Positions 36,847 to 61,203 of a stretch of 64,000 nt of DNA are shown in pieces. Each line of letters opens with the position of its first letter. Position 1 is the first letter of the stretch. Location of the stretch: assembly GCA_014896315.1 (NCBI GenBank), contig JADBKP010000006.1, forward strand, positions 124,001 through 188,000, written 5' to 3'. The notes below the pieces were generated by a model. That model was given only the letters and a program-made list of their open reading frames with translations, made no database searches and was not told the origin of the DNA. This stretch comes from Limnochordales bacterium (GTDB taxonomy: Bacteria > Bacillota > Limnochordia > Limnochordales > DUMU01). The translations under genes were made by a program, and so were the position numbers.

Positions 36847-37488
36847 TTGGGGTTCTGGCGGATCTACCTGGAAAACCGGTGGCATGTTCTGGTTCTGGTC
36901 GTCTTCATACTGCTGGTGGGGGCGATTGCCGGCGCAGGTTGGGCGTTGACCCTGCCGGAAGATGAACTCAGTTCACTGCAGGAGTTACTTGAATCGTTCC
37001 ACCAGTCGGCCTGGCAGGCCACTGGGGCGGCCCCCGCCGAACTCTTTCGCCAGGGGGTAAAGTATGACGTTCTGCGCACCATCGGTCTGCTCTACCTCAT
37101 CGGCCTCTCCTGGGTGGGTGCCCCCCTCATCCTGCTTATGATCTTCGCCCGCGGCTTTGCCCTGGGTTTCACGGCAGCCATCCTCGTCACCCCGCTCTCG
37201 TGGCGGGGGCTTATCGTCGGCACTGCAGCTCTACTTCCCCAAAACCTGCTCCTCGTCCCGGCCGTGGTAGTCGCAGCCGTGGCCAGCCTGCACTTCTCCT
37301 GGGTAAGCCTGGCCTCTCTCCTTGCGCCGCGCAAAGAGTGGCGGGGTGAAGAGGCGGAGATCCGGCGGCAATTTCTGGCGGCGACGGCGATGGTTCTGCT
37401 CGCGGCCGGCATGGCTACGCTGGCCAATCTGGTGACGGCGTACGTCACCCCTCTGCTTCTTACCGTTCTCACGGGGTGGCTCGCTTAA
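36847..37488 (+). CDS. spoIIM: Stage II sporulation protein M
   Basis: Mother-cell membrane protein that forms the septal peptidoglycan hydrolysis/engulfment complex with SpoIID and SpoIIP. The 213-residue product has five hydrophobic helices (about 12-33, 78-100, 105-125, 130-160, 180-205) and the family segment RTIGLLYLIGLSWVGAPLIL followed by FARGFALGFTAAIL. It starts with TTG at 36847, nine bases after a very strong GGGAGGGGGG. Its presence is direct evidence for endospore formation. xerD follows after 24 bases, as in Bacillus and many Clostridia. Confidence 0.9.
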   Translation: MGFWRIYLENRWHVLVLVVFILLVGAIAGAGWALTLPEDELSSLQELLESFHQSAWQATGAAPAELFRQGVKYDVLRTIGLLYLIGLSWVGAPLILLMIFARGFALGFTAAILVTPLSWRGLIVGTAALLPQNLLLVPAVVVAAVASLHFSWVSLASLLAPRKEWRGEEAEIRRQFLAATAMVLLAAGMATLANLVTAYVTPLLLTVLTGWLA

Positions 37489-45147: not shown

Positions 45148-45522
45148 ATGCATGATCTAAAGGACCTTTCGGTCAGTATCGAGGGTGACGTCTTGCTGGT
45201 TCGTCTGGAGGGAGAGCTGGATCTTAACACAGCGCCAAAGTTCAGGGCAGCTGTGGAGGAGACCATCGGCCGCCGGCCTCATCTGCTCCACCTGGTCCTG
45301 GATCTGACGGGCGTTACCTTCGTTGACAGCTCGGGCCTGGGAGCGATACTCGGACGCTACCGCCAGTTCGCCGAGCGCGGCGGCCGTGTGGTGGTGATCG
45401 GCCTGCAGCCGTCCGTGCGCCGCCTCTTCGAGTTGTCGGGGCTTTTCCGCGTGGTGGAGACGGCGACGTCGTACGCGGAAGCTAAAGCCCGCCTGAAAGG
45501 GGGCGCAGCGGTTGAGCGCTGA
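45148..45522 (+). CDS. spoIIAA: Anti-sigma F factor antagonist SpoIIAA
   Basis: STAS-domain protein that frees sigma-F in the forespore by binding SpoIIAB; SpoIIAB inactivates it by serine phosphorylation. The 124-residue product has LVRLEGELDLNTAPKFRAAV and the phosphorylation motif VTFVDSSGLGAILGRYRQF. The ATG at 45148 is preceded by GAGGTGAG. It overlaps spoIIAB by 11 bases, as in other spoIIA operons. It is the first gene after the sigma-H-like promoter. Confidence 0.93.
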   Translation: MHDLKDLSVSIEGDVLLVRLEGELDLNTAPKFRAAVEETIGRRPHLLHLVLDLTGVTFVDSSGLGAILGRYRQFAERGGRVVVIGLQPSVRRLFELSGLFRVVETATSYAEAKARLKGGAAVER

Positions 45523-46003
45523 ACAGGATCCGATCAACCGTTTCTCCCTCTCCTTTCCCGGTCTGCCCGCCAACGTTTCTTTTGCACGAGCCACGGTCGC
45601 CGCCTTTGCCGCACAGGTCGACCAGTTTACACTGGAAGACCTCGAGGATATCCGCATTGCCGTCTCCGAAGCCGTTTCTAACGCGGTAATCCATGCCTAT
45701 CCACAGAGTGTCGGGCCGGTGGAGGTCGAGGTGGCACTTTTTCCCGATCGGCTGGAGATCAAGGTGGTGGACCACGGCCGGGGCATACCCGATGTGGAGC
45801 AGGCAAAGACTCCCACTTTCACTACGCTGCCGGGAGAAAGGATGGGGCTCGGCCTGACCTTCGTACAAACCTATATGGACGAGGTTACCATCTCTTCCCG
45901 CCCCGGTATGGGAACGACCGTCTGGATGGTCAAAAAACTCCCCGGTACGCTCGCAAACGGCGGAGGGGGGATAGGGACGGCAGTCGGCCGCCCCGCTCCG
46001 TGA
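45512..46003 (+). CDS. spoIIAB: Anti-sigma F factor / serine kinase SpoIIAB
   Basis: Binds and holds sigma-F with ATP/ADP and phosphorylates SpoIIAA. The 163-residue GHKL kinase has the N box EAVSNAVIHAY, the G1 box VDHGRGIPDVEQA and the G2 box ERMGLGLTFVQTYMDEVTI. A Gly-rich tail of about 20 residues extends beyond the usual 145. The TTG start at 45512 lies inside spoIIAA, so translation is probably coupled. sigF starts at its stop codon. Confidence 0.92.
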   Translation: MSAEQDPINRFSLSFPGLPANVSFARATVAAFAAQVDQFTLEDLEDIRIAVSEAVSNAVIHAYPQSVGPVEVEVALFPDRLEIKVVDHGRGIPDVEQAKTPTFTTLPGERMGLGLTFVQTYMDEVTISSRPGMGTTVWMVKKLPGTLANGGGGIGTAVGRPAP

Positions 46004-46773
46004 TGCCGTTGACCGGCGGGATCCCCTCTTTGCCAGCCCCCCTTGACCCTGCTGCAACTCAAGAGCTTTTCCGGAAAGCACGCCAGGGCGACGAATTGGC
46101 CCGTCAGCGACTGGTTGAGCACAACCTGCGCCTTGTACGGGCGGTGGTGCGGCGTTTTCGGGAGGCGCGCCTGTTTATCCCGGTAGACGATGACGATCTG
46201 TTCCAGGCCGGCTGTATCGGGCTTCTCCAGGCTGTAGACGGCTTCGATCCCGAGCGAGGCATCCAATTCTCGACCTATGCCGTACCGTTCATCCTGGGCG
46301 AGATCCGTCGTTACGTCCGTCAGCAGGTCGCTCCTGATCTACCCCGGTCTCTCTGGCAGCGCAGCGGTCAGGTCGCCACGGTCCGTACCCGGTTTCTGCA
46401 GCAATGGGGTCGCGAACCGACCCTGGCCGAACTCAGCCGGCTTACCGGGCTCTCGACGCAGGACGTGGCAGAGGCTCTGGAGGTACAGGAGTGGCTGGGC
46501 GAGCTCAGCCGGACACCGGGAACAGGACTGGCTACGCCTGTACCGGAACCCGGGCAGGAGGACGCCAGGTTGGAGGGAACACATGACAGGGTTGCACTCC
46601 ACGAAGCGCTGGCCCGTCTGCCGCCCGCGGACCGGTTGTTGCTTGAGCTTCGTTTCTTCCGGCAACTCAGTCAGCCGGAAGTGGCGGCCCGCCTGGGACT
46701 CTCTCAGCCGCACATATCGCGGCGAGAGAGACAGCTCCTGGCGAGGCTCCGTTCGGGATTTAGCGACCGGTAG
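46000..46773 (+). CDS. sigF: Forespore RNA polymerase sigma factor SigF
   Basis: First forespore-specific sigma factor. The 257-residue product has region 2 (RLVEHNLRLVRAVVRRF; DDLFQAGCIGLLQAVDGFDP; GIQFSTYAVPFILGEIRRYV, the last typical of SigF/SigG/SigB), region 3 (LPRSLWQRSGQVATVRTRF) and region 4 (LPPADRLLLELRFFRQLSQPE; LSQPHISRRERQLLARL). GTG at 46000 overlaps the spoIIAB stop; ATG at 46003 is equally possible. The order spoIIAA-spoIIAB-sigF identifies it as SigF rather than SigG. Confidence 0.93.
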   Translation: MMPLTGGIPSLPAPLDPAATQELFRKARQGDELARQRLVEHNLRLVRAVVRRFREARLFIPVDDDDLFQAGCIGLLQAVDGFDPERGIQFSTYAVPFILGEIRRYVRQQVAPDLPRSLWQRSGQVATVRTRFLQQWGREPTLAELSRLTGLSTQDVAEALEVQEWLGELSRTPGTGLATPVPEPGQEDARLEGTHDRVALHEALARLPPADRLLLELRFFRQLSQPEVAARLGLSQPHISRRERQLLARLRSGFSDR

Positions 46774-46917
46774 GCAGGTATGGTCGAAATTGCTGGAAGG
46801 GGGCAGCAGACGGGAGACGAACTCTTTCTCGGCGTCGTTGAAACTTACAGATGGCCAATCGTCGTAGCACCATTCTTCCTTGCCTCCAGCAAACTTCGCA
46901 GAAAGGGTTGGCACACC

Positions 46918-47457
46918 GTGGTTCTTATCGGCAAAATGGTTAAGCTTCGTCCCCTCCTTCCGCAGGACTTACCTCTCATAGTCGCCTCCGCACGCGACCC
47001 GCAAATACAGCGCCTCGTAGATGGAGCATATCCGTCTTCTCTGGCGGAGTGCGCGCCCTGGTTCAACGCGCTAAAGGCAAACCGCAACCATAAACATTTC
47101 GCCATCATCGCTCCCGACAACCGGTTCATCGGGGATATTGAACTGGACTCCATCAGCTGGAGGCGAAGGGAGGGTGAGCTGCGCATCTGTATCTGTAACC
47201 CCAACTACTGGAACCGCGGGCTGGGGACGGATGCCGTAGCCACCCTGGCAGCTTATGCCTTCGACCAGCTCCACCTGCGCCTCATCTATCTGCGTGTCTA
47301 CAGGGAAAACCGCCGGGCCATCCGTTGCTACGAGAAGGTAGGCTTCCGGATAGTTGGCTGGCTGCGCCGTCCCACAGAAGCCGGCATCCGTGAGGTGTAC
47401 CTGATGTGCCTGACACCGGCCGAGCTGCAGACGCCGCTGCCGGCCCTGGCTGGCTGA
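46918..47457 (+). CDS. GNAT family N-acetyltransferase (RimJ/RimL type)
   Basis: A 179-residue acetyltransferase with the GNAT fold: VKLRPLLPQDLPLIVASARD, FIGDIELDSISWRRREGELR, then the acetyl-CoA loop NYWNRGLGTDAVATLAAYAF, and RVYRENRRAIRCYEKVGFRI, the RimJ/RimL hallmark. The acceptor could be a ribosomal protein, an amino acid or a small molecule. GTG at 46918, ten bases after AAAGGG, was chosen; the ATG at 46936 also fits, and a frame from 46780 looks non-coding at its start. It lies between sigF and the exbB promoter. Confidence 0.85.
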   Translation: MVLIGKMVKLRPLLPQDLPLIVASARDPQIQRLVDGAYPSSLAECAPWFNALKANRNHKHFAIIAPDNRFIGDIELDSISWRRREGELRICICNPNYWNRGLGTDAVATLAAYAFDQLHLRLIYLRVYRENRRAIRCYEKVGFRIVGWLRRPTEAGIREVYLMCLTPAELQTPLPALAG

Positions 47458-47661: not shown

Positions 47662-48279
47662 ATGTTGGATATCTTCGTCAAGGGCGGTCCAGTCATGTAT
47701 GCTCTGCTTGCCTGTTCAATTGTCTCAGTCGCAGTTATTATCGAACGGTTTTGGTATCTTTGGCGCCAGCGGCAACCGGCGGACGAACTCTTTGAAGAGG
47801 TGCGCGAGACATTGGCCGAGGGAAAAGTGCTGGAGGCCCTGCAATTGGCACAACAGTCAGACCACCCGGTCGCCAACATGCTGGCCGAAGCGATTGCCCA
47901 TTATGACGAAGGGCAAGAAGCGATAAAGGAAAGTGTAGAAAGAGTCGGCCAGGAACAGGTTGCCTTGCTGGAACGGGGGCTACCGGCTCTGGACACTATT
48001 GTCACCATAGCCCCGCTCCTTGGGCTTCTGGGCACGGTAACGGGAATTATCAAGGCTTTCAATGTTCTCGGCGCTCTACAGGGTGTCGACGATCCTTTCG
48101 CCCTGAGCGTCGGTATTGCTGAAGCACTTATAACCACCGCAACCGGCCTGACCATTGCCATTCCTACCCTTGTGTTCCATAGGTTTCTGAGCAGTATGGT
48201 AGATGGTATTGTCGCCCAGATGAACGAAAAAGCTGAAGAGATTCTCGCTATGCTGGCAGAAGCCAAAGGGGGGAAGTGA
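47662..48279 (+). CDS. exbB: ExbB/TolQ family proton channel protein
   Basis: Membrane subunit that with ExbD converts proton flow to energise TonB. The 205-residue product has three hydrophobic helices: residues 10-30 (VMYALLACSIVSVAVIIERF), 112-135 and 150-175, with the family motif TIAPLLGLLGTVTGIIKAF and LITTATGLTIAIPTLVFH. The cytoplasmic loop is about 75 residues. ATG follows GGAGG by about ten bases. The following genes exbD and tonB identify it as ExbB rather than MotA or TolQ. Confidence 0.9.
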   Translation: MLDIFVKGGPVMYALLACSIVSVAVIIERFWYLWRQRQPADELFEEVRETLAEGKVLEALQLAQQSDHPVANMLAEAIAHYDEGQEAIKESVERVGQEQVALLERGLPALDTIVTIAPLLGLLGTVTGIIKAFNVLGALQGVDDPFALSVGIAEALITTATGLTIAIPTLVFHRFLSSMVDGIVAQMNEKAEEILAMLAEAKGGK

Positions 48280-48282
48280 GTT

Positions 48283-48711
48283 ATGTACTTCCACCGCCGC
48301 CCCCGGCGCAATTCCGACGTCAATATCGTTCCCCTGATCGATATCTTCACCCAACTACTCTTCTTTTTCATGATTGTAACTACCTTCAAGACAGGTTCGT
48401 CGCAGATCCCGATCAACCTTCCCAAGGCGCAGCAAGCGGCGGCGCAGACCCGGGCCCAGTTTGTTGTCACCATTGACGATCAGGGGTTCATGTATGTTGA
48501 CGGCAGCCGGGTTGATGCTGAGCAACTCCGCCTGGCGACCGCGGCCGCTCTCGAGGCCCAGCCGTCCCTTTTCGTAGTGATCCGCGCCGACAAGGGTGTG
48601 AAGTACGAGGCGGTGATCGGGGCGATTGATGCTGTACGGTCGGCCGGAGTAAGCAGCCTGGGCCTGGCAGTAGAAAGGACGTCAAGTACAACTCCGCCCG
48701 GCTCCGTATAA
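48283..48711 (+). CDS. exbD: ExbD/TolR family biopolymer transport protein
   Basis: The 142-residue partner of ExbB: a basic N-terminus (FHRRPRRNSDVNIVPLIDIF), one membrane helix (FTQLLFFFMIVTTF) with the conserved proton-pathway aspartate D20, and a periplasmic domain ending in IRADKGVKYEAVIGAIDAVR, the ExbD hallmark. It follows exbB by three bases and precedes tonB by 13. The three form a complete energy-transducing unit. Confidence 0.92.
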   Translation: MYFHRRPRRNSDVNIVPLIDIFTQLLFFFMIVTTFKTGSSQIPINLPKAQQAAAQTRAQFVVTIDDQGFMYVDGSRVDAEQLRLATAAALEAQPSLFVVIRADKGVKYEAVIGAIDAVRSAGVSSLGLAVERTSSTTPPGSV

Positions 48712-48724
48712 GGGAGGGAACCCC

Positions 48725-49855
48725 ATGTTTGCCGCACAGGAGAGTCGGCTGGTCCGGACTGCTTCTTTCGGGATTTCCCTGTTGATTCATCTGCTCCTCT
48801 TCCTTCTCTTTCCCCACATGGCCACATTCCTGGAGGGTACGTACGGCGAGGGAATTATGGCCGGGGGTGTTCCCGTGCAAGTGGTTGCTCTAACCCCCGT
48901 TTCGTCCAGCGCGACGCGACCGGTGGAGGTTGCCGGCTACGGCAGCACCGACAACGCACCGGCCACCCGCGCCCGGCCAGCACCGGGTGAACCGACCACC
49001 TTGCCGCAGCCCGATCGCCCCCCTGGTGTCACGCTGCAAACACCCACTCCGGCAGGGGGGGGAGCACCCGTCTCTTCTACCCAGGCCCAAGCCGGAACGG
49101 CCGACAGAAAGGCGGCCATTCTGCCACCGCAGAGTAAGGAGAGTCAGGACGCAGAAGTTCGCGGAGGATCGACTGGCCTTCCGGCAACCCCGACCGGTAA
49201 CCATGAGCTTCTCACAAGCCCGACCGGCACAGATGTAGTGCAGGTTCCCGAGTATAGTCCGGAGGAATCGGCTGGCGTAACGGAAAGCAAGTCGACGAAA
49301 GGTTCACAGGCCAAGTCTCCCACAGTGTCTGTCTCTGCCGATAAGGGTCCCGTATCCGCGGCGGCCGCCGGCGACCAGGTGACATCCGTCTCGAACGCGG
49401 CAGCGCCGCAGGGGCAGAGCAGCAGAGCCGGGGGCGAGGTACGGAATGAGGGCACGGGCGCAGGAGGAAGGCAGGGGATAGGTTCCGAGCCGGCTGCACC
49501 GCCCGCCCCGGCTGTCGGCCGGGGACCCTGGCTGGCCGGTAGCGCACCGGTCTACCCGAAAGCCGCCCTCGACCGGGGGCTCGAGGGTGTCGTTCGCGGG
49601 CAGGTGCTGATAAACGCTGCCGGGCAGATAACGGTTCGTAAGATATCCTCCGCCGGCCACCCCAACATGGACCTGGTGGCCACAAAGACCATTGGCGAAC
49701 GCTGGCAAGCGACCTATCGCCCACCGGAGGGTTGGGTGACGGTCGTCGAATGGGTTGTCCGGTTCGAGCGCAATCAAGTTTTTGTGGAACAGACCGATGC
49801 GTTCAACATCCGGGAGGATCAGGTGCCCGCCACCGGGCCGGTTCTGCGTCCATAG
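48725..49855 (+). CDS. tonB: TonB-like energy transducer
   Basis: Spans the envelope to energise outer-membrane receptors. The 376-residue product has a short cytoplasmic N-terminus, one membrane helix (FGISLLIHLLLFLLF) in which S18 and H22 repeat the SxxxH motif of TonB needed for coupling to ExbB/ExbD, a long Pro/Ala/Ser/Gly-rich periplasmic linker (about 50-275), and a TonB C-terminal domain at about 275-360 (APVYPKAALDRGLEGVVRGQ; LINAAGQITVRKISSAGHP). The linker is long enough to cross a periplasm. ATG follows AAGGGAGGG. Confidence 0.87.
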   Translation: MFAAQESRLVRTASFGISLLIHLLLFLLFPHMATFLEGTYGEGIMAGGVPVQVVALTPVSSSATRPVEVAGYGSTDNAPATRARPAPGEPTTLPQPDRPPGVTLQTPTPAGGGAPVSSTQAQAGTADRKAAILPPQSKESQDAEVRGGSTGLPATPTGNHELLTSPTGTDVVQVPEYSPEESAGVTESKSTKGSQAKSPTVSVSADKGPVSAAAAGDQVTSVSNAAAPQGQSSRAGGEVRNEGTGAGGRQGIGSEPAAPPAPAVGRGPWLAGSAPVYPKAALDRGLEGVVRGQVLINAAGQITVRKISSAGHPNMDLVATKTIGERWQATYRPPEGWVTVVEWVVRFERNQVFVEQTDAFNIREDQVPATGPVLRP

Positions 49856-49901
49856 GCACAGGATTGGTCCGGCAGTACCAAAGGAGGGGTGCGGTGATAG
49901 G

Positions 49902-52010
49902 ATGAACGCGACTTTAGGAAGAGCCCGGTTGATGAGTATGCTCGTCCTTGCCGGACTGGTCGTGCTACCGGCGGCGATCGCGCTGGCCGAATCGAGCCCC
50001 GCCGGAGGGAAGGGGGCTAATACAGGAGATAGAGCAGCTGCCGGCGATAGCACGGTCCTTTCCCTCGCCAATGAGTTCATCCGGGTTGTTATCAACGGCG
50101 GGCCGCAGGATGCGGGGCGCTTCTCCGTAAGCACCACTGGCGGCGACCCGACCCGCAGCGATGATGACTCCAGGCCTCTGGTGTACGGAATGGAGCGACC
50201 CTGGACTAGCTATACAACGGTGAAGGTGGATGACGAGTGTTACCTTTTCGGCGGACCGACCGAGCGGCGCGCGGGGCTTGGAGTTCCAGCGGGGAAGGAG
50301 ATTCTGTCTCCTCGCCAACAGGACGGCCAGTTGGTAACAGCCTGGCAGATCGGCGACATCCGGGTAGAGCAACGCCTCTCAATCGTCCGCAGCTTTGACA
50401 CAGGCCTGGAGGACTCGGTGCGCGTTCAATACGTATTGACCAACACAGGCACTGCCAGTCACGTCGTAGGTCTTCGCATGGTGGTTGACACCATGCTGGG
50501 CGACAACGACGGTGCACCCTTCCGTGTTGGCGAGCATGCCTTCGTAAGCGACGCGCGTCTCGAGGGAGCGGATGTACCCGACTTCTGGCAGGCCTTCGAC
50601 TCGTTAACCAACCCCCATGTGACTTCTCAGGGAACCCTGCGCGGGCCGCAGCTGGTCCCGCCAGATGCGGTAGTTTTTACTAACTGGGGGAAACTGGCCG
50701 ATAATCCGTGGGACGTCCCCCTTGAACCCGGACGCGACTTTACGCGGGCGGGGGAGTATGAGCTGGACTCGGCGATCGCTCTCTTCTGGCAACCCCGGCC
50801 TCTTGCCCCCGGGGAAACCAGGACTATAGCCACTCAGTACGGGTTGGCGGGCATCAGCATTGCTCGCGGCTTCCTGTCCCTGGGATTTTCCTCACCGGTC
50901 CAGGTAGTCTCCGGATCGGCCTTCCAGGTGGTGGCCTACGTTGAGAACAACGAAGGGGAGGCCCGCGACGTCGTTGCCCGTCTGGTTCTCCCCGGCGGGA
51001 TCAAGCTCCTCTCCGGCGAGCTCCAACGCGGGCTGGGGACGCTGAAGCCGGCCGCCAGCCGGCAACTGGTTTGGGTGCTTACTGCTGATAAGCTCGGCGA
51101 ATTCCAGCTCGGCGTGGAGGTAACCTCCAGCAACAGCCAACCGGTCCAGGTGAGCCGACCGATCAGTGTGATATCGCCGGTCCGGTTGAAAGTGGAGACC
51201 AGCGTCCCGGCGTCGTTGCAGGTGGTTGGCGAGGCGCTGACTCCGAATCCGGTGCGCTTGACCGCTCGGGTTGTCAACCTGGGCGCTGCGCCTGCCGAAA
51301 ACGTCACCGTGCAACTACAAAAGACCGATCCCCGCCTGCCACTCGTTCCGGCAGATTCGCCTCTCCGCTACCTCGGTCGTCTCGATCCTGGCGACAGCGG
51401 AGCGGTTGAGGTCTCCTGGTTACTCGCTCCCCGACCGGGGGAGCCAGGGGCGGCCACCCTGGCTCTGCAGGCTGTGAGTGACAACGGTGCCGCAGTGACA
51501 ACCAGCAATGTGGTGCAGGTTCCGGCCATAACACCTCGTCTGTTCTTCGGTCAGCCGCGTCTTGTGCGGCTGGCGGACGGATCGAATATTGTGGAGGTCG
51601 ACCTGTTTGCCACCAATATCCCCCGGTTCCAGCGGGCCCGCATCGGTCTTGTAATACAGCCGGCCGAGTTGCAGCCCCTGGATCCGCTCTCCCTTTCGAT
51701 TCGCCCCGGAACCCTGGCGGTTGGCGATCTATCGCTTTCCGGGCACACCGGCTCCCCGGAGGTCATGTTGAGCTGGGAGCTTGTCCCCGGCGGCGTGCCC
51801 GGGCAGCCGGACCTGCTCTGGCTTTACCTGGATCGCGGTAACCGGGGGGCGGTGGCATGGACCGGGGCGCAAAGCACGGTGGCTACGCTGCGCTTCCGCC
51901 TCCTCAAGCCGACCTTCACACTCTCATTCTCTGTGGGCACGCAGGTCTGGCGGGATGACGGGCAGCCGGTACCGGTGCAGCTTCTGTCGGTACATGGAGA
52001 GTCCAAGTAG
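49902..52010 (+). CDS. Secreted beta-rich protein of unknown function in the TonB operon
   Basis: A 702-residue exported protein: signal peptide MSMLVLAGLVVLPAAIALAE near residues 10-30, then a beta-rich domain of about 280 residues (about 45-325; LANEFIRVVINGG, PLVYGMERPWTSYTTVKV, RLSIVRSFDTGLEDSVRVQY), then two immunoglobulin-like/CARDB-type repeats (about 330-560; VNLGAAPAENVTVQLQ), and a C-terminal domain with a cohesin-like look (about 575-700; STVATLRFRLLKP). I recognise no specific family. No membrane anchor or sorting signal is seen. AAGGAGGGG lies 13 bases before the ATG. Between tonB and an SLH protein, it is probably periplasmic or on the cell surface. Confidence 0.72.
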   Translation: MNATLGRARLMSMLVLAGLVVLPAAIALAESSPAGGKGANTGDRAAAGDSTVLSLANEFIRVVINGGPQDAGRFSVSTTGGDPTRSDDDSRPLVYGMERPWTSYTTVKVDDECYLFGGPTERRAGLGVPAGKEILSPRQQDGQLVTAWQIGDIRVEQRLSIVRSFDTGLEDSVRVQYVLTNTGTASHVVGLRMVVDTMLGDNDGAPFRVGEHAFVSDARLEGADVPDFWQAFDSLTNPHVTSQGTLRGPQLVPPDAVVFTNWGKLADNPWDVPLEPGRDFTRAGEYELDSAIALFWQPRPLAPGETRTIATQYGLAGISIARGFLSLGFSSPVQVVSGSAFQVVAYVENNEGEARDVVARLVLPGGIKLLSGELQRGLGTLKPAASRQLVWVLTADKLGEFQLGVEVTSSNSQPVQVSRPISVISPVRLKVETSVPASLQVVGEALTPNPVRLTARVVNLGAAPAENVTVQLQKTDPRLPLVPADSPLRYLGRLDPGDSGAVEVSWLLAPRPGEPGAATLALQAVSDNGAAVTTSNVVQVPAITPRLFFGQPRLVRLADGSNIVEVDLFATNIPRFQRARIGLVIQPAELQPLDPLSLSIRPGTLAVGDLSLSGHTGSPEVMLSWELVPGGVPGQPDLLWLYLDRGNRGAVAWTGAQSTVATLRFRLLKPTFTLSFSVGTQVWRDDGQPVPVQLLSVHGESK

Positions 52011-52047
52011 TTCGCGCTCGAAGAAGACGGAGTGAGGGGGAATGAAG

Positions 52048-53793
52048 ATGCCTCGTAACATCATCGTTGCCGGGTGGGCCAGGCGGTGGGTCGTCCTGGT
52101 CTTTGTGGCGGTCCTGACGGCCGGTGGCCTTTGCGGTCCGCTCCAGGCAGCCGAGACGGTCAAGATCAAGGATGTGTCCCCAAGCGACCCCAACTATGCC
52201 GCCATCCAGCGCTTGACCTCCCAGGGATGGCTTGCCGTTTACTCCGACAATACCTTTGGGCCAAACCGGGCCGTGGACCGCTATACCCTTGCGGTCGTGC
52301 TCGACAGGTTGCTGAAGGAGCTGGAGCAGGCCAAAGCCAACCCCGAACAGATCGCCCTGCTGCGAGATATCGCCAACAAGCTCCGGCAGGATCTGGCCCA
52401 GGTCAGCAGCGATCAGGCAAAGCTCTCCGCCAGTGTGGACCAGCTTGGCAAGCAACTGAGCGCTCTCGGCATTGATCTGACCAGTACGGCGGGTCTTGTC
52501 TCGCAGCTCAATGAACGTATCAAAGCGCTGGACCAGGCAAACCAGGCAGGCGCGGCCAGGCTGGACAGCCTAACCACGAGGCTGGCACAACTCGAGCAAC
52601 GCGTTGCCACGGAAGCAGGGAATACGCAGGCACTGACAGCCTCCAGTGAGGCGTTAGCTAAGAGCCTGACGGATCTGCAGTCACGGCTGGCCAACGCGGA
52701 GAAAGCGCTGAACTCCACCCAGACCCGCATCCTGGATGTCGAAGAGAAGATCGCCCAGCTGGAAACGGGTCTCCGCCAGGAGATGCAACAGGCTGTGGCG
52801 GGGGTCACAAAGGAGTTGACGGCCACCGCCGATACGACGAAGGCCCTGATGGACTCCAGTACGGCTGTAGGCCAGAGTGTTGCCGACCTGAAGTCTCGGC
52901 TGGAGGCGGCCGAATCCCGGATCGGCGGAATCGAGGAGAGGCTCGACCGGATGGAGGCCGGCCTGGCACAGGCCCAAACCCAGGCGGCAGGGAGAGCTGA
53001 CGCTCTCGAGAACACGGTCAGCACGTTGTCCGCCAGTGTAGCCGATCTCAGCTCCCGGCTGGATGCCGTCGACGGCAAGTTGACTGCTGCCGAAGGACGG
53101 TTTGCCGGCGTCGACCAGCGTCTCGAAGCGGTGGACAAGCGCATCCAGGAGCTGGCGGGGCAGTTGGTGGCAGCAGGAACAAAAGGGGACGCCGTTGCCA
53201 AGCAGGTCCAAGAGCTGAAGGCTGACGTCGACAAGCGGGTGGAAGCTCTCAAGAATGATGTGACCAGCGCGCTCGACCAGCGGGTTGCCACAGAGTCGCA
53301 AGCTCGTACCCAGGCTCTGGAGGAGCTTCGGGAAGAGCTGGCGGAGGCCACAGAAAGCCTGCGCGACACCACAGCCGCCCGCTTAGAGGCGGTGGATGCG
53401 GCGCTTGCAGAGACCCAGGAGAAGGTTGCGCGTATCGAAAGCGGTTTGGGGCAGGAAGCCGAGGCCCGCCAGCAACTGGCCGCCAACTGGGACCAGCGGT
53501 GGCAGGAGCTTACCGACCAGTTAAAGGCCCTGGCCAGCCGGATCGATGGCATCGCCCGGGACGTGGAGGCGTTGAAGGGGAAGGTGAACGTACTCAGCGG
53601 TTCAAATCTCGATGTCAGCACGCAGCTGGCAGCAGCCTTCAACCAGATCACAACGCTGCAGCGCGACCTGGACCAGCTGAAGCGGGAGTTCAACGACTTC
53701 CGGGTGGCCACCAACGAGAGCCTGACCAAGTTCAACAAGAACCTTTGGCTTGTGGGCGGTGCCGCCGGATTGCTGGGAATGTTCGTTCATTAG
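52048..53793 (+). CDS. SLH-domain coiled-coil protein with C-terminal anchor, Omp-alpha-like envelope spacer
   Basis: A 581-residue exported protein. Signal peptide (VVLVFVAVLTAGGLCGPLQA, cleavage near AETV), one SLH domain (about 35-90; IKDVSPSDPNYAAIQRLTSQ, LAVYSDNTFGPNRAVDRYTL), then about 460 residues of nearly unbroken coiled coil rich in Ala, Leu, Gln and Glu (about 95-560), and a final hydrophobic segment NLWLVGGAAGLLGMFVH. SLH domains bind secondary wall polymers on peptidoglycan. This layout matches Thermotoga Omp-alpha, a rod that links peptidoglycan to the outer layer; OmpM and Thermus SlpA have SLH domains too but end in a barrel. ATG at 52048 is seven bases after GAGGGGG. A terminator follows. 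Confidence 0.85.
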   Translation: MPRNIIVAGWARRWVVLVFVAVLTAGGLCGPLQAAETVKIKDVSPSDPNYAAIQRLTSQGWLAVYSDNTFGPNRAVDRYTLAVVLDRLLKELEQAKANPEQIALLRDIANKLRQDLAQVSSDQAKLSASVDQLGKQLSALGIDLTSTAGLVSQLNERIKALDQANQAGAARLDSLTTRLAQLEQRVATEAGNTQALTASSEALAKSLTDLQSRLANAEKALNSTQTRILDVEEKIAQLETGLRQEMQQAVAGVTKELTATADTTKALMDSSTAVGQSVADLKSRLEAAESRIGGIEERLDRMEAGLAQAQTQAAGRADALENTVSTLSASVADLSSRLDAVDGKLTAAEGRFAGVDQRLEAVDKRIQELAGQLVAAGTKGDAVAKQVQELKADVDKRVEALKNDVTSALDQRVATESQARTQALEELREELAEATESLRDTTAARLEAVDAALAETQEKVARIESGLGQEAEARQQLAANWDQRWQELTDQLKALASRIDGIARDVEALKGKVNVLSGSNLDVSTQLAAAFNQITTLQRDLDQLKREFNDFRVATNESLTKFNKNLWLVGGAAGLLGMFVH

Positions 53794-53885: not shown

Positions 53886-54590
53886 TCACAGCGCCACATC
53901 CACAATGGCAGGTAGCAACAGGGCGAAGAAGAGTGAGGGAAGCATGTTGGCCACGGGGAGCTTAGCCACACCCACCATGTTGAGTCCCAGGCCGACGATC
54001 AACAGGCCGCCCGTGCCGGTCAGCAGTTGAAGAGCAGCCTCGGTAACGAGCCGGGTGAATAACCCGGCTCCCAGGGAGATAGCCCCCTGGTAGACGAGGA
54101 CGGCCAGACTGGAGGCGGCTACACCCGGGCCGAGGGTGGAGGCAAAGGCGATTGCCGTCGTCCCATCGATAACCCCTTTGGTCAAGAGGATACGATAATC
54201 ACCGGTGCTTCCGTCCTGAATGCTGCCGACAATGGCCATCGGCCCGACCACAAACAAGAGGCTGGCGGTAATAAATGCCCGGGCAAATCTCCCGGACCCG
54301 GCTGCCATACCGCCAAAGCGGGCTTCAGCTTTCCGGCCGAGCGCCTGCAGTCGCTCCTCCAGGCGCAACAGGCCGCCGATCCAGGTCCCCGCGGTAAGGG
54401 CGGCCAGCGCCCAGAGGGGCTGTTGCACCTGTCGCAGCGAGGCGGCCATCTCTGCCCCAAGGTAGAGGACGAAAAGGCCGATCCCTTGTACCAGCGACTG
54501 GGCGAGGTTGGCACTGAGGCGGCGATGAACCACCATGCCGACCAGCGAACCCACCAGGATCAACGAAGCGTTTATAAGCGTTCCCCTCAC
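53886..54590 (-). CDS. DUF554 family membrane protein
   Basis: A 234-residue integral membrane protein with about seven hydrophobic helices. Family features: MRGTLINASLILVGSLVG start, GIGLFVLYLGAEMA, FITASLLFVVGPMAIVGSIQ, DGSTGDYRILLTKGVIDGTT and LLIVGLGLNMVG. DUF554 proteins (YdfK-like) are possible transporters of unknown substrate. GTG start on the minus strand; a weak AAAGGA lies about 17 bases before it. It is the only sizeable minus-strand gene in the right half. Confidence 0.88.
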   Translation of the reverse strand: MRGTLINASLILVGSLVGMVVHRRLSANLAQSLVQGIGLFVLYLGAEMAASLRQVQQPLWALAALTAGTWIGGLLRLEERLQALGRKAEARFGGMAAGSGRFARAFITASLLFVVGPMAIVGSIQDGSTGDYRILLTKGVIDGTTAIAFASTLGPGVAASSLAVLVYQGAISLGAGLFTRLVTEAALQLLTGTGGLLIVGLGLNMVGVAKLPVANMLPSLFFALLLPAIVDVAL

Positions 54591-54748: not shown

Positions 54749-54757
54749 TGGTATAAT
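54749..54757 (+). promoter_or_regulatory. Extended -10 promoter for miaB-mutS-mutL
   Basis: TGGTATAAT has a perfect -10 (54752-54757) and the TGn extension; no clear -35. The start would be near 54765, about 80 bases before the chosen miaB start. An ATG at 54756 overlaps the -10 and cannot be the start of this transcript. Confidence 0.65.
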
Positions 54758-54845
54758 GATAGTCGTTTCTAAGCAAAACGCCTCGTGGCGGGAGTGGCCG
54801 TGGATAACGACCGGTCCATCCCGCCTACCGGGAAAGGGGCCTCGT

Positions 54846-56261
54846 GTGGTGGCCGGCAAGGGTAGAGCGGTCCAGATCAGCCAGTATTCCCCCCCACAAG
54901 CCAAGATCGGCCTGGGCAAGCTGGCGTATATCAAGACATTTGGCTGCCAGATGAATGAACATGACACTGAGATAATCATGGGTGAGCTGGCGCAGCTCGG
55001 CTACGGATTTACTGCGGATCCGGCTGCGGCCGACCTTATTCTTTTCAATACCTGTGCTGTGCGGGAAAACCCGGAGCGGAAGCTCTTCGGGCAGGTAGGA
55101 GATCTGGCCCAGCTGAAACGGGCCCGGCCGGAGCTGATCATCGGCATCTGCGGCTGCCTGGTGCAGCAACAGACGGTGTTGGAACGGATTATCCGGCAGC
55201 TGCCCCATGTCGACCTGATTTTCGGAACTCACAACATTCACCGCCTGCCCGCCCTGCTCCAGATGGTGGCGGAGAGCGGACGCAAGGTCGTCGAGGTGTG
55301 GGACGAAGACCAGGGAATCGTGGAAGGAATGCCCGTACAACGCATCGACGATCTGAAGGCATATGTGACGGTTCACTATGGATGTGACAAATTCTGCAGC
55401 TTCTGCATCGTCCCCCAGACCCGAGGGCGGCAGCGGAGCCGCCGGGCCGGCGATATCCTGCGGGAGATCGAAGAGCTGGCGCGGGAGGGATACAAGGAGG
55501 TCACGCTCCTTGGCCAAAACGTAAATGCCTGGGGTAAAGAGTTCGATCCCCCGGCCGACTTTGCCGATCTTTTGTGGCGCGTCAATGAGATACCGGGAAT
55601 CGAACGGATCCGGTTCACCTCACCGCATCCGCGGGACCTGACAGACCGACAGATAGAGGTGTTACGGGACGCACCCCACGTGATGGAGCATCTGCACCTG
55701 CCGCTCCAGTCCGGCTCGGATAGGATCCTATACCGGATGAACCGCCGTTACACGCAAGCCGAGTACCTGCGGCTTGTGGAAAAGGTGCGGGAGGCTGTCC
55801 CCGATATTGTCCTCACCACCGACATCATCGTGGGCTTCCCCGGCGAAACGGATGCCGACTTTGCCGAGACTCTCAAAGTGGTGCAGGAGGTCGAATACGA
55901 TTCCGCCTTTACCTTTGTCTATTCGCCGCGCCCTGGTACTCCCGCGGCCCGACAGGAGGATCAGGTCCCCCAGGTGGTGAAGAAAGAAAGGATTCAACAG
56001 TTGATCGACCTGCAAAACGAGATCTCCCATCGCAAGATGCAGGCGCGCGTCGGGCGGATCGAAGAGGTGCTGGTCGAGGGGCCGAGCGAGAAGAATCCCG
56101 CGCGGCTGGCGGGGCGCACGCGCGGCAACCAGTGGGTGGTCTTCGACGGTCCGGCCTCCTTGCGCGGCCGGATCGTACCGGTCAGGATCACCGCGGCCCA
56201 GACCTTCAACCTCTTTGGAGAGCTGGTCTCTGTCTGTGAGGCAGCCACCGCAGGGGTGTGA
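54846..56261 (+). CDS. miaB: tRNA-2-methylthio-N6-dimethylallyladenosine synthase MiaB
   Basis: Radical-SAM methylthiotransferase acting on i6A37, the product of MiaA. The 471-residue product has the N-terminal UPF0004 domain with three cluster cysteines (TFGCQMNEHD, FNTCAVREN, GICGCLVQQ), the radical SAM motif YGCDKFCSFCIVPQTRGRQR, LHLPLQSGSDRIL, and a C-terminal TRAM domain (about 400-465). GTG at 54846 lies six bases after GGAAAGGGG; GTG 54849 is close. mutS follows after 63 bases. Both miaB and miaA lie in this block, split by mutS-mutL and a methyltransferase. Confidence 0.95.
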   Translation: MVAGKGRAVQISQYSPPQAKIGLGKLAYIKTFGCQMNEHDTEIIMGELAQLGYGFTADPAAADLILFNTCAVRENPERKLFGQVGDLAQLKRARPELIIGICGCLVQQQTVLERIIRQLPHVDLIFGTHNIHRLPALLQMVAESGRKVVEVWDEDQGIVEGMPVQRIDDLKAYVTVHYGCDKFCSFCIVPQTRGRQRSRRAGDILREIEELAREGYKEVTLLGQNVNAWGKEFDPPADFADLLWRVNEIPGIERIRFTSPHPRDLTDRQIEVLRDAPHVMEHLHLPLQSGSDRILYRMNRRYTQAEYLRLVEKVREAVPDIVLTTDIIVGFPGETDADFAETLKVVQEVEYDSAFTFVYSPRPGTPAARQEDQVPQVVKKERIQQLIDLQNEISHRKMQARVGRIEEVLVEGPSEKNPARLAGRTRGNQWVVFDGPASLRGRIVPVRITAAQTFNLFGELVSVCEAATAGV

Positions 56262-56324
56262 GGCAAGGACAGAAGACGACGACGGGCTGCGAAGCAGGCA
56301 GGTGGCAGGCAGGAGGCTGACCCG

Positions 56325-59241
<2,917 letters not shown>

Positions 59242-59255
<14 letters not shown>

Positions 59256-61203
59256 GCTACTGGCCGACGATGTGGTACAGAAGATCGCCGCCGGCGAAGT
59301 GATCGAATCACCTGCTTCGGTCATCAAGGAACTGGTGGAGAACAGCATCGATGCCGGAGCCCGCCGGATCGAAATCGAGGTGCGGCGGGCGGGCAAGGAG
59401 CTGATCCGGGTCACGGACGACGGAGAAGGGATCGCGCCGGAAGATCTCCCGCTCGCCGTGATGGCCCATGCCACCAGCAAACTGGAGCGGGCCGAAGAGC
59501 TTTCCGCCGTGCGCACGCTGGGCTTTCGGGGTGAGGCGCTGGCCAGCATTGCTGCGGTCTCCCGCCTCGAGATACTCTCTCGCCCGCCAGGGGCCGCCCA
59601 GGCCCATCGTATCCTCGTACAAGCAGGTGTCCCGCAAACCGCCGGGGCAGGCAGTTCACCGGTAACGCCTGCTCCGGGACCGTGCGGGACCAGTGTCATC
59701 GTGCGGGAGCTCTTTTTCAACACACCGGCCCGATTCAAGTTTCTGCGCAGCGACGCCGCGCTGCGGCGGGCGATCGTTGATCTGGTCGGCCGGCTGGCGC
59801 TGGCCCACCCCGAGATCTCCTTCCGGTTGCTTCTCGAGGGAGAGGAGCGCTTCCTGACCACCGGCGATGGGAATCTTACCGGTGCTGCCGCCGCGCTTTG
59901 GGGAGGCCAACTCGCCCGCCAGTTGCTCGCGGTCCCCCGAGAAGAAGGATTGGCCGGCAGTATCTACGGGTTGCTGGGCCGTCCGGGGCTGCACCGGCAC
60001 AACCGCCAGGACGAAGTCTTTATCCTCAACGGGCGGGTTATCGAGAGCCGTCTTCTCTCAGCCGCACTCGAGCGTGCTTACGAATCGCTGCTTCCCGCCC
60101 ACCGTTTTCCCCTGGCGGTGCTGCACCTGGAGATCGACCCGGCGCAGGTGGACGTTAACGTTCATCCGACCAAGCGCGAGGTCCGGTTTCGCGACGAGTC
60201 CGCCGCGTTCCGGCTGGTGCATTTCGCTTGCCGGAGGACGCTGCAAGAGCACGGTTCAGCGGCACGCCGGCTGACGCTACCGGCCGGCGTGCGAGCGGAG
60301 CAGAGACCGCTGTCGGCAGCCATCCTGCCCCCGTCCGCACAGGATCTGCTGCACAGACCAGAGCCAGGGATGGAGATAGAAGCGGCTTACGTCGCCGGCA
60401 AGCCGAGTAGCCGGGAGAGGGAGTATCCCGGCCTGGTGCGGCCGGAGGAAAAGAAGGATCTGGAGCTGGCCGAAGCTCCCCTGGGGCGTGCTTGGGGCGA
60501 AGCGAGTGACGCGCAGCTCGAGAGCTTGCGCGAGGTACTGCCCAGGCTGCAGCTGCTCGGCCAGTTCCATCTAACATATGTGGTGGCGGAAAGTGCTGAT
60601 GCGTTATGGTTTATTGATCAGCACATCGCACACGAGCGGGTTATCTTCGATGAACTGCGGGCCGAATACGAAGCCTCTGCCGCAGCCGGGCAGGCTGCAC
60701 CTGCTCAAGAGCTGTTGCTGCCCGTCCCGGTAACGCTTACACCGGCTATCCTCGCCGCGGTCGGTTCACCCGGCTCCGGTGAAGCATCGTTCTGGTCGGA
60801 GCTGACGCGCCTCGGATTCCGTTGTGAGACATTTGGACCCCGCCAGATACTGGTGCGGAGTGTACCACTGGCGTGGGGAAGACTGGGGCGCGAGCCGGCG
60901 CAACCGGCTGATCTGGAAGCGGCCCTCGCCCAGGCCTGGGCAGCCTGGGGGAATGGGGGGAGGCAGACCGGTAGCCAGGGAGAAGATCCCGAGCTGATTC
61001 GGCGGGAGAGGATATGGGCAACGATCGCCTGCAAGGCGGCGATCAAGGCGGGGGAAAGGCTCGCTCCCGCAGAGATGCAAGAGCTTCTTCAACGGTTAGC
61101 GAGAACCAGGCACCCGTTCACCTGTCCGCACGGCCGACCGGTTGTAGTGGCCTTGCCTCTGGAGGAGATCGACCGCCGCTTCGGACGGCCGTCACGCGCT
61201 TGA
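59242..61203 (+). CDS. mutL: DNA mismatch repair protein MutL
   Basis: GHKL ATPase that links MutS to strand incision. The 653-residue product has IRLLADDVVQKIAAGEVIES, VKELVENSIDAGA, VTDDGEGI, LGFRGEALASIAAV and VDVNVHPTKREVRF. The C-terminal endonuclease region is present: DQHIAHERVIFDE in place of the usual DQHAxxExxxxE (Ala to Ile, last Glu to Asp), ACKAAIKAGERL and FTCPHGRP. The residues suggest an active nicking MutL, though the Glu to Asp change may matter. ATG follows GGGAGGGGAAGG and overlaps mutS. Confidence 0.95.

Follow-up and report, generated by a model that had tools for sequence, protein, structure and literature searches.

In the window (the whole 64,000-nucleotide stretch of a Limnochordales contig that was analysed), an operon of five genes encodes a TonB-type motor together with a secreted protein, here called g4, and an SLH/coiled-coil protein, here called the rod. 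We propose, and give an even chance, that the operon is a proton-driven envelope machine which works without TonB-dependent receptors and is a functional counterpart of Tol-Pal, tethering the outer membrane. The same gene order was found in 64 loci of the phylum, so the five-gene arrangement is well above chance. By role, it is the order of E. coli tolQ-tolR-tolA-tolB-pal, and a Tol-Pal-like machine is proposed because of this shared order together with the absence of bona fide TolB from 398 genomes.

The operon and its products

The operon (47662-53793) sits downstream of spoIIA with all genes on one strand, and the intergenic gaps in the order exbB-exbD-tonB-g4-rod are 3, 13, 46 and 31 bp. 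The features of the region are as follows.

45148..46773, + strand: spoIIAA, spoIIAB and sigF, neighbours outside the machine (Pfam STAS, HATPase_c_2, Sigma70_r2/r4)
46780..47457, + strand: GNAT acetyltransferase between sigF and exbB (Acetyltransf_3, E=1.1e-23), upstream in 33 of 64 loci
47662..48279, + strand: exbB/tolQ-type motor subunit, 205 aa (Pfam MotA_ExbB, E=1.9e-31)
48283..48711, + strand: exbD/tolR-type motor subunit, 142 aa (Pfam ExbD, E=7.8e-29)
48725..49855, + strand: tonB-type force transducer, 376 aa (Pfam TonB_C, E=1.2e-7, exceeding the curated cut-off)
49902..52010, + strand: g4, secreted protein, 702 aa (conserved among 29 aligned relatives; nothing above cut-off in Pfam or NCBIfam)
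52042..53793, + strand: rod, 583 aa (Pfam SLH, E=1.1e-6, plus coiled coil)
54756..61203, + strand: miaB, mutS and mutL, downstream neighbours kept in many loci

An earlier note on this DNA had described exbB, exbD, tonB, a gene for a secreted protein and an SLH/coiled-coil gene; their positions and strand are as it claimed, and Pfam agrees wherever families exist. The start of g4 is probably the ATG at 49902, which opens a signal peptide (the listed ORF begins at a TTG within tonB), and the true start of the acetyltransferase probably lies downstream of 46780. In a promoter/terminator scan, terminators were at the level of shuffled sequence, and transcript ends are not fixed by the scan.

The motor residues are conserved. 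T125 and T159 of the exbB product correspond to T145 and T178 of TolQ, D20 of the exbD product corresponds to D23 of TolR, and none of the three varies in any of 60 relatives. Close to its N-terminus the tonB product carries the SxxxH helix, present at S18/H22 just as claimed (MFAAQESRLVRTASFGISLLIH), followed by a Pro/Gly-rich linker and a TonB_C domain at residues 274-340, which Pfam found only this once in the genome. The SxxxH motif is kept in nearly all complete TonBs of the module loci. NCBIfam scores of the motor lean to TolQ/TolR, below cut-off, and this preference was dropped as evidence because receptor-linked paralogues score alike. In the ExbB tree, module and receptor-linked copies tend to part, with weak support and long branches. 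Separately, three gammaproteobacterial loci (L007, L009 and L010) hold exbB (and exbD where seen) flanked by comEC-like and msbA-like genes, outside tol-pal operons and without adjacent tonB, that is, an ExbBD pair with no obvious transducer.

The g4 protein consists of a signal peptide, a conserved N-terminal domain, two Ig-like (NEW3/CARDB) repeats and a C-terminal cohesin-like domain. In an alignment of 29 relatives, 48 of the 59 invariant columns fall within residues 57-328, the N-terminal domain, which is an undescribed domain. The window protein gives only a CARDB match, below threshold, in Pfam; among the 29 members, Cohesin was detected in 16 and NEW3 in 25. A g4 profile matched the cohesin of PDB 3l8q (E=2.3e-13), with resemblance to type II cohesin, and a PDB search with the single g4 sequence returned no significant match. 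The AlphaFold model built from two sequences had a mean pLDDT of 49, too poor for use. No likeness of g4 to TolB was detectable. The N-terminal domain of g4 also opens very large secreted proteins (L153, L155, L156 and L157) carrying RHS repeats, RCC1/lipase or triple SLH, from genomes in which BamA was undetected.

The rod is composed of a signal peptide, an SLH domain at residues 42-80, a long coiled coil and a C-terminal hydrophobic helix (LWLVGGAAGLLGMFV). The Omp-alpha-like character ascribed to it earlier was thus found: Thermotoga Omp-alpha (OmpA1), a proposed anchor between wall and outer sheath, shares the SLH domain, the long coiled coil and the hydrophobic C-terminus, a likeness of layout (PMC3387000), whereas the rod is encoded alongside a proton motor and g4. 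The hydrophobic C-terminus is present in 59 of 61 relatives, and the length among relatives ranges from 213 to 1447 residues (a long example is L098:4531-8874) with both ends conserved. OmpM, the outer-membrane tether of diderm Firmicutes (PMC10628300), likewise combines an SLH domain with a periplasmic coiled-coil stalk, but it bears a C-terminal beta-barrel and the rod terminates in a helix. Because no SLH-barrel (OmpM) protein was detected in this genome, the rod is the best tether candidate of this organism; the one other SLH protein found there has two SLH repeats and no sign of a barrel. In some families a second, shorter rod-like SLH protein is encoded upstream of exbB (L086:5611-6201, L129:10572-11264, L141:10303-10995, L159:2033-2767).

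Missing receptors and distribution of the module

The host genome (2.59 Mb, 96.8% complete) carries in one cluster BamA with POTRA domains, LpxD, LptF/G, LptC, an LptA-type protein, LpxI and LpxB. A 752-aa protein (L004:2370-4625), encoded between LptF and LptC where LptD would be expected, has no Pfam match and is probably a divergent LptD. The genome also encodes SpoIVA (E=1e-110), and SpoIIM is found at 36847-37488 in the window (E=1.6e-17). Judged by gene content, the host is a diderm, LPS-bearing Firmicute and a spore-former, and the diderm spore-former put forward earlier is borne out by BamA, Lpt and Lpx genes standing in the same genome as SpoIIM, spoIIA and SpoIVA. Two isolates of the class have been observed to possess an outer membrane (PMC11456536), and the reference list of that paper points to an already published Gram-negative spore-former of the same class.

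A search of the rest of the genome recovered the BamA and lpx genes that the earlier note had looked to, with Lpt genes besides, and no TonB-dependent receptor. Both the barrel (PF00593) and the plug (PF07715) were absent from the genome, with E. coli, Caulobacter and Bacteroides controls positive. Therefore, the assumption that this TonB energises receptors falls, and receptor energising does not explain TonB here.

Motor and transducer belong to the ExbBD-TonB type by Pfam, and the module shares with Ton systems the ExbB/ExbD motor, the SxxxH transducer helix and the TonB_C domain, so that g4 and the rod might be merely bystanders or accessory parts of a Ton system. Undetected receptors were one option raised, another function being the other, for Halothermothrix orenii, in which ExbB and ExbD accompany a putative TonB and no receptors were noted (PMC2626281). 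However, the models that found neither barrel nor plug in the host do detect receptors elsewhere in the phylum, and the plug is absent from 58 of 88 module genomes. Receptor-bearing genomes hold the module as a separate locus: among 101 relatives, TonB_C was found in 73 and the plug in 11, seven of which have two TonB_C hits, and the fetched receptor-linked TonB loci (L078, L087, L089, L097 and L101) are without g4 and rod. These two proteins, instead of a receptor, are the constant partners at every module locus. For want of a receptor the module does not qualify as a Ton system, and we regard the reading of g4 and rod as bystanders as unlikely. Among Firmicutes, Ton systems have been found in Negativicutes only (PMC12204202). 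The ExbB, ExbD and TonB of Halothermothrix orenii are probably the same system as the module; the report on them (PMC2626281) concerns one genome and describes neither g4 nor the rod, nor the conservation and distribution of the operon. The main text of PMC5007114 makes no mention of TonB, Exb or Tol. No paper linking ExbB with SLH and cohesin was found in the literature searched, and an earlier mention (Taib 2020, Witwinowski 2022) is possible.

The order exbB-exbD-tonB-g4-rod holds in 64 of 64 inspected loci, from many families, as far as the contigs extend. The loci counted are those with full-length g4, and since L006 and L063 come from one genome they represent 63 independent loci. Both exbB and exbD lie ahead of g4 in 61 loci and the rod follows g4 in 61, the other three being cut off by the contig edge in either case. 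The tonB gene was recognised by profile in 63 loci, and L130 has a divergent ORF with an SCLLH helix at the expected place.

The distribution was surveyed in 398 genomes, evenly drawn and all from the phylum, which contain full-length g4 in 88, BamA in 102 and the plug in 44 cases. Both g4 and BamA are present in 87 genomes, g4 only in 1, BamA only in 15 and neither in 295. The genome having g4 without detected BamA (G425) is a fragmented draft. The 15 genomes with BamA only comprise 10 of family f44, 3 of family f74, G266 and G310; G266 is 84% complete and its family otherwise has g4, and G310 gives a marginal BamA match. Families f44 and f74 are receptor-rich (plug in 12 of 13) and are probably Negativicutes. 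Fisher's test of g4 against BamA gives an extreme value, but shared ancestry means that the genomes do not count as independent, and we rely on the pattern rather than on the P-value. The module is common to nearly all sampled diderm Firmicutes outside one branch, and the closeness with which it tracks BamA shows that it has some role connected with the outer membrane, though not which one.

If g4 acted outside the cell, the motor might drive a surface apparatus, such as the assembly of an S-layer or toga-like sheath, or the export or attachment of cohesin-bearing proteins. The cohesin-like domain at the C-terminal end of g4 is consistent with this, as are the very large secreted proteins, from genomes with BamA undetected, that share its N-terminal domain. 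However, the operon contains neither a dockerin partner nor a secretion channel, and full-length g4 is restricted to outer-membrane-bearing genomes, as would fit a periplasmic part; a surface apparatus is an improbable explanation.

Sporulation neighbourhood

In the earlier note, the envelope operon was placed beside the spoIIA sporulation switch. The two are indeed neighbours, an arrangement conserved in the class, but the operon proved independent of it. Of the 64 module loci, 33 have sigF upstream, mostly accompanied by dacF and spoIIA, an arrangement that the window shares. Loci of halanaerobial type have some or all of rny, ymdB, spoVS, spmA, spmB and a PHP gene upstream of the operon and a gene for a SleB-like wall hydrolase downstream. 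Two loci (L086 and L139) have spoIIAB-sigF-spmA-spmB ahead of the operon and miaB behind, a pattern that suggests a single old neighbourhood.

Several further features of the flanks were observed. Between 36847 and 46773 the window holds SpoIIM, an xerD-like recombinase, a deoB-like gene, a DacF-like carboxypeptidase and spoIIAA/AB/sigF, an order which we take to resemble that of Bacillus subtilis. A DUF554 membrane protein is encoded on the reverse strand (53886-54590) between rod and miaB, as also in L064. In L132, L137, L140, L142, L144, L146, L147, L152 and L163, the gene after the rod, or after ndk where that intervenes, encodes a SleB/CwlJ-like cell-wall hydrolase (Hydrolase_2). The gene is kept in L146 although its genome, G292, is without SpoIVA, and this hydrolase may serve the vegetative wall.

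That the module is a sporulation device, its motor acting on the outer membrane or wall in engulfment or forespore maturation and hence encoded beside spoIIA, spmAB or spoVS, is quite unlikely: the flanking genes described above and the presence of SpoIVA in 73 of 80 module genomes favour it, but the module is kept in 7 of the 80 without SpoIVA (four families, mostly near-complete), about one third of the loci are without a sporulation gene nearby, the module is missing from most spore-formers of the phylum, which are monoderm, and the promoter and terminator scans were uninformative. The seven genomes indicate that the machine is not limited to spore-formers. The machine may also act at the spore septum, as a special case of the septum.

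Comparison with Tol-Pal and proposed mechanism

Tol-Pal and the module share an order of two motor subunits, transducer, soluble secreted protein and wall-binding, membrane-anchored protein, with no receptor. The parts differ: the transducer of the module bears TonB_C, g4 with its N-terminal, Ig-like and cohesin-like domains is no TolB propeller, and the SLH rod is no OmpA-type lipoprotein like Pal, to which it has no detectable likeness, and is without an OmpA domain in Pfam. Bona fide TolB (TIGR02800) was above cut-off in 0 of 398 genomes, with no match whatever in the host and with E. coli and Caulobacter positive. The OmpA-domain search for Pal was swamped by MotB, the matches in the genome being MotB-sized and one lying beside MotA in the window. 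Our claim is thus one of functional likeness; lacking TolB and Pal, the module is not a member of Tol-Pal. Curated Tol-Pal has been found in Gracilicutes only and is not known from diderm Firmicutes (PMC12204202).

From the observed gene order, conservation, motor residues, domains, absence of receptors and of bona fide TolB, and co-distribution with BamA, we infer the protein contacts, the placement of the rod C-terminus and a role in division. ExbB and ExbD would form an inner-membrane proton channel that drives TonB through the SxxxH helix. The C-terminal domain of TonB would span the wall and tug a dedicated partner, most likely g4, which may contact the rod in the manner of TolB with Pal. 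The rod would bind peptidoglycan or a wall polymer by its SLH domain, with the C-terminal helix inserted in the outer membrane, and pulling would free or shift this outer-membrane anchor. The likely outcome would be invagination of the outer membrane at septa, the asymmetric spore septum included, and general outer-membrane stability. The C-terminal helix of the rod could instead lie in the inner membrane. The spread of rod lengths exceeds the need of a plain periplasmic spacer, which counts against the tether model.

A wider proposal, tentative and a little short of even, is that the module represents a second, independent class of Tol-Pal type, ancestral to diderm Firmicutes, which is built round a motor of TonB type, with a new secreted adaptor and an SLH rod taking the place of TolB and Pal, and which was lost along with the outer membrane in monoderms. 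If true, this class would give diderm Firmicutes the force-driven outer-membrane tethering that they apparently miss. The module is a near-universal candidate, with its genes named, for constricting and holding the outer membrane in diderm Firmicutes without Tol-Pal, and further outer-membrane-stabilising systems are held still to be revealed (PMC12204202). It also bears on the puzzle left in 2009 by a halanaerobial genome with ExbB, ExbD and TonB yet no receptor (PMC2626281). Because the module follows the outer membrane through the phylum, its loss may mark, and may even help explain, transitions from diderm to monoderm.
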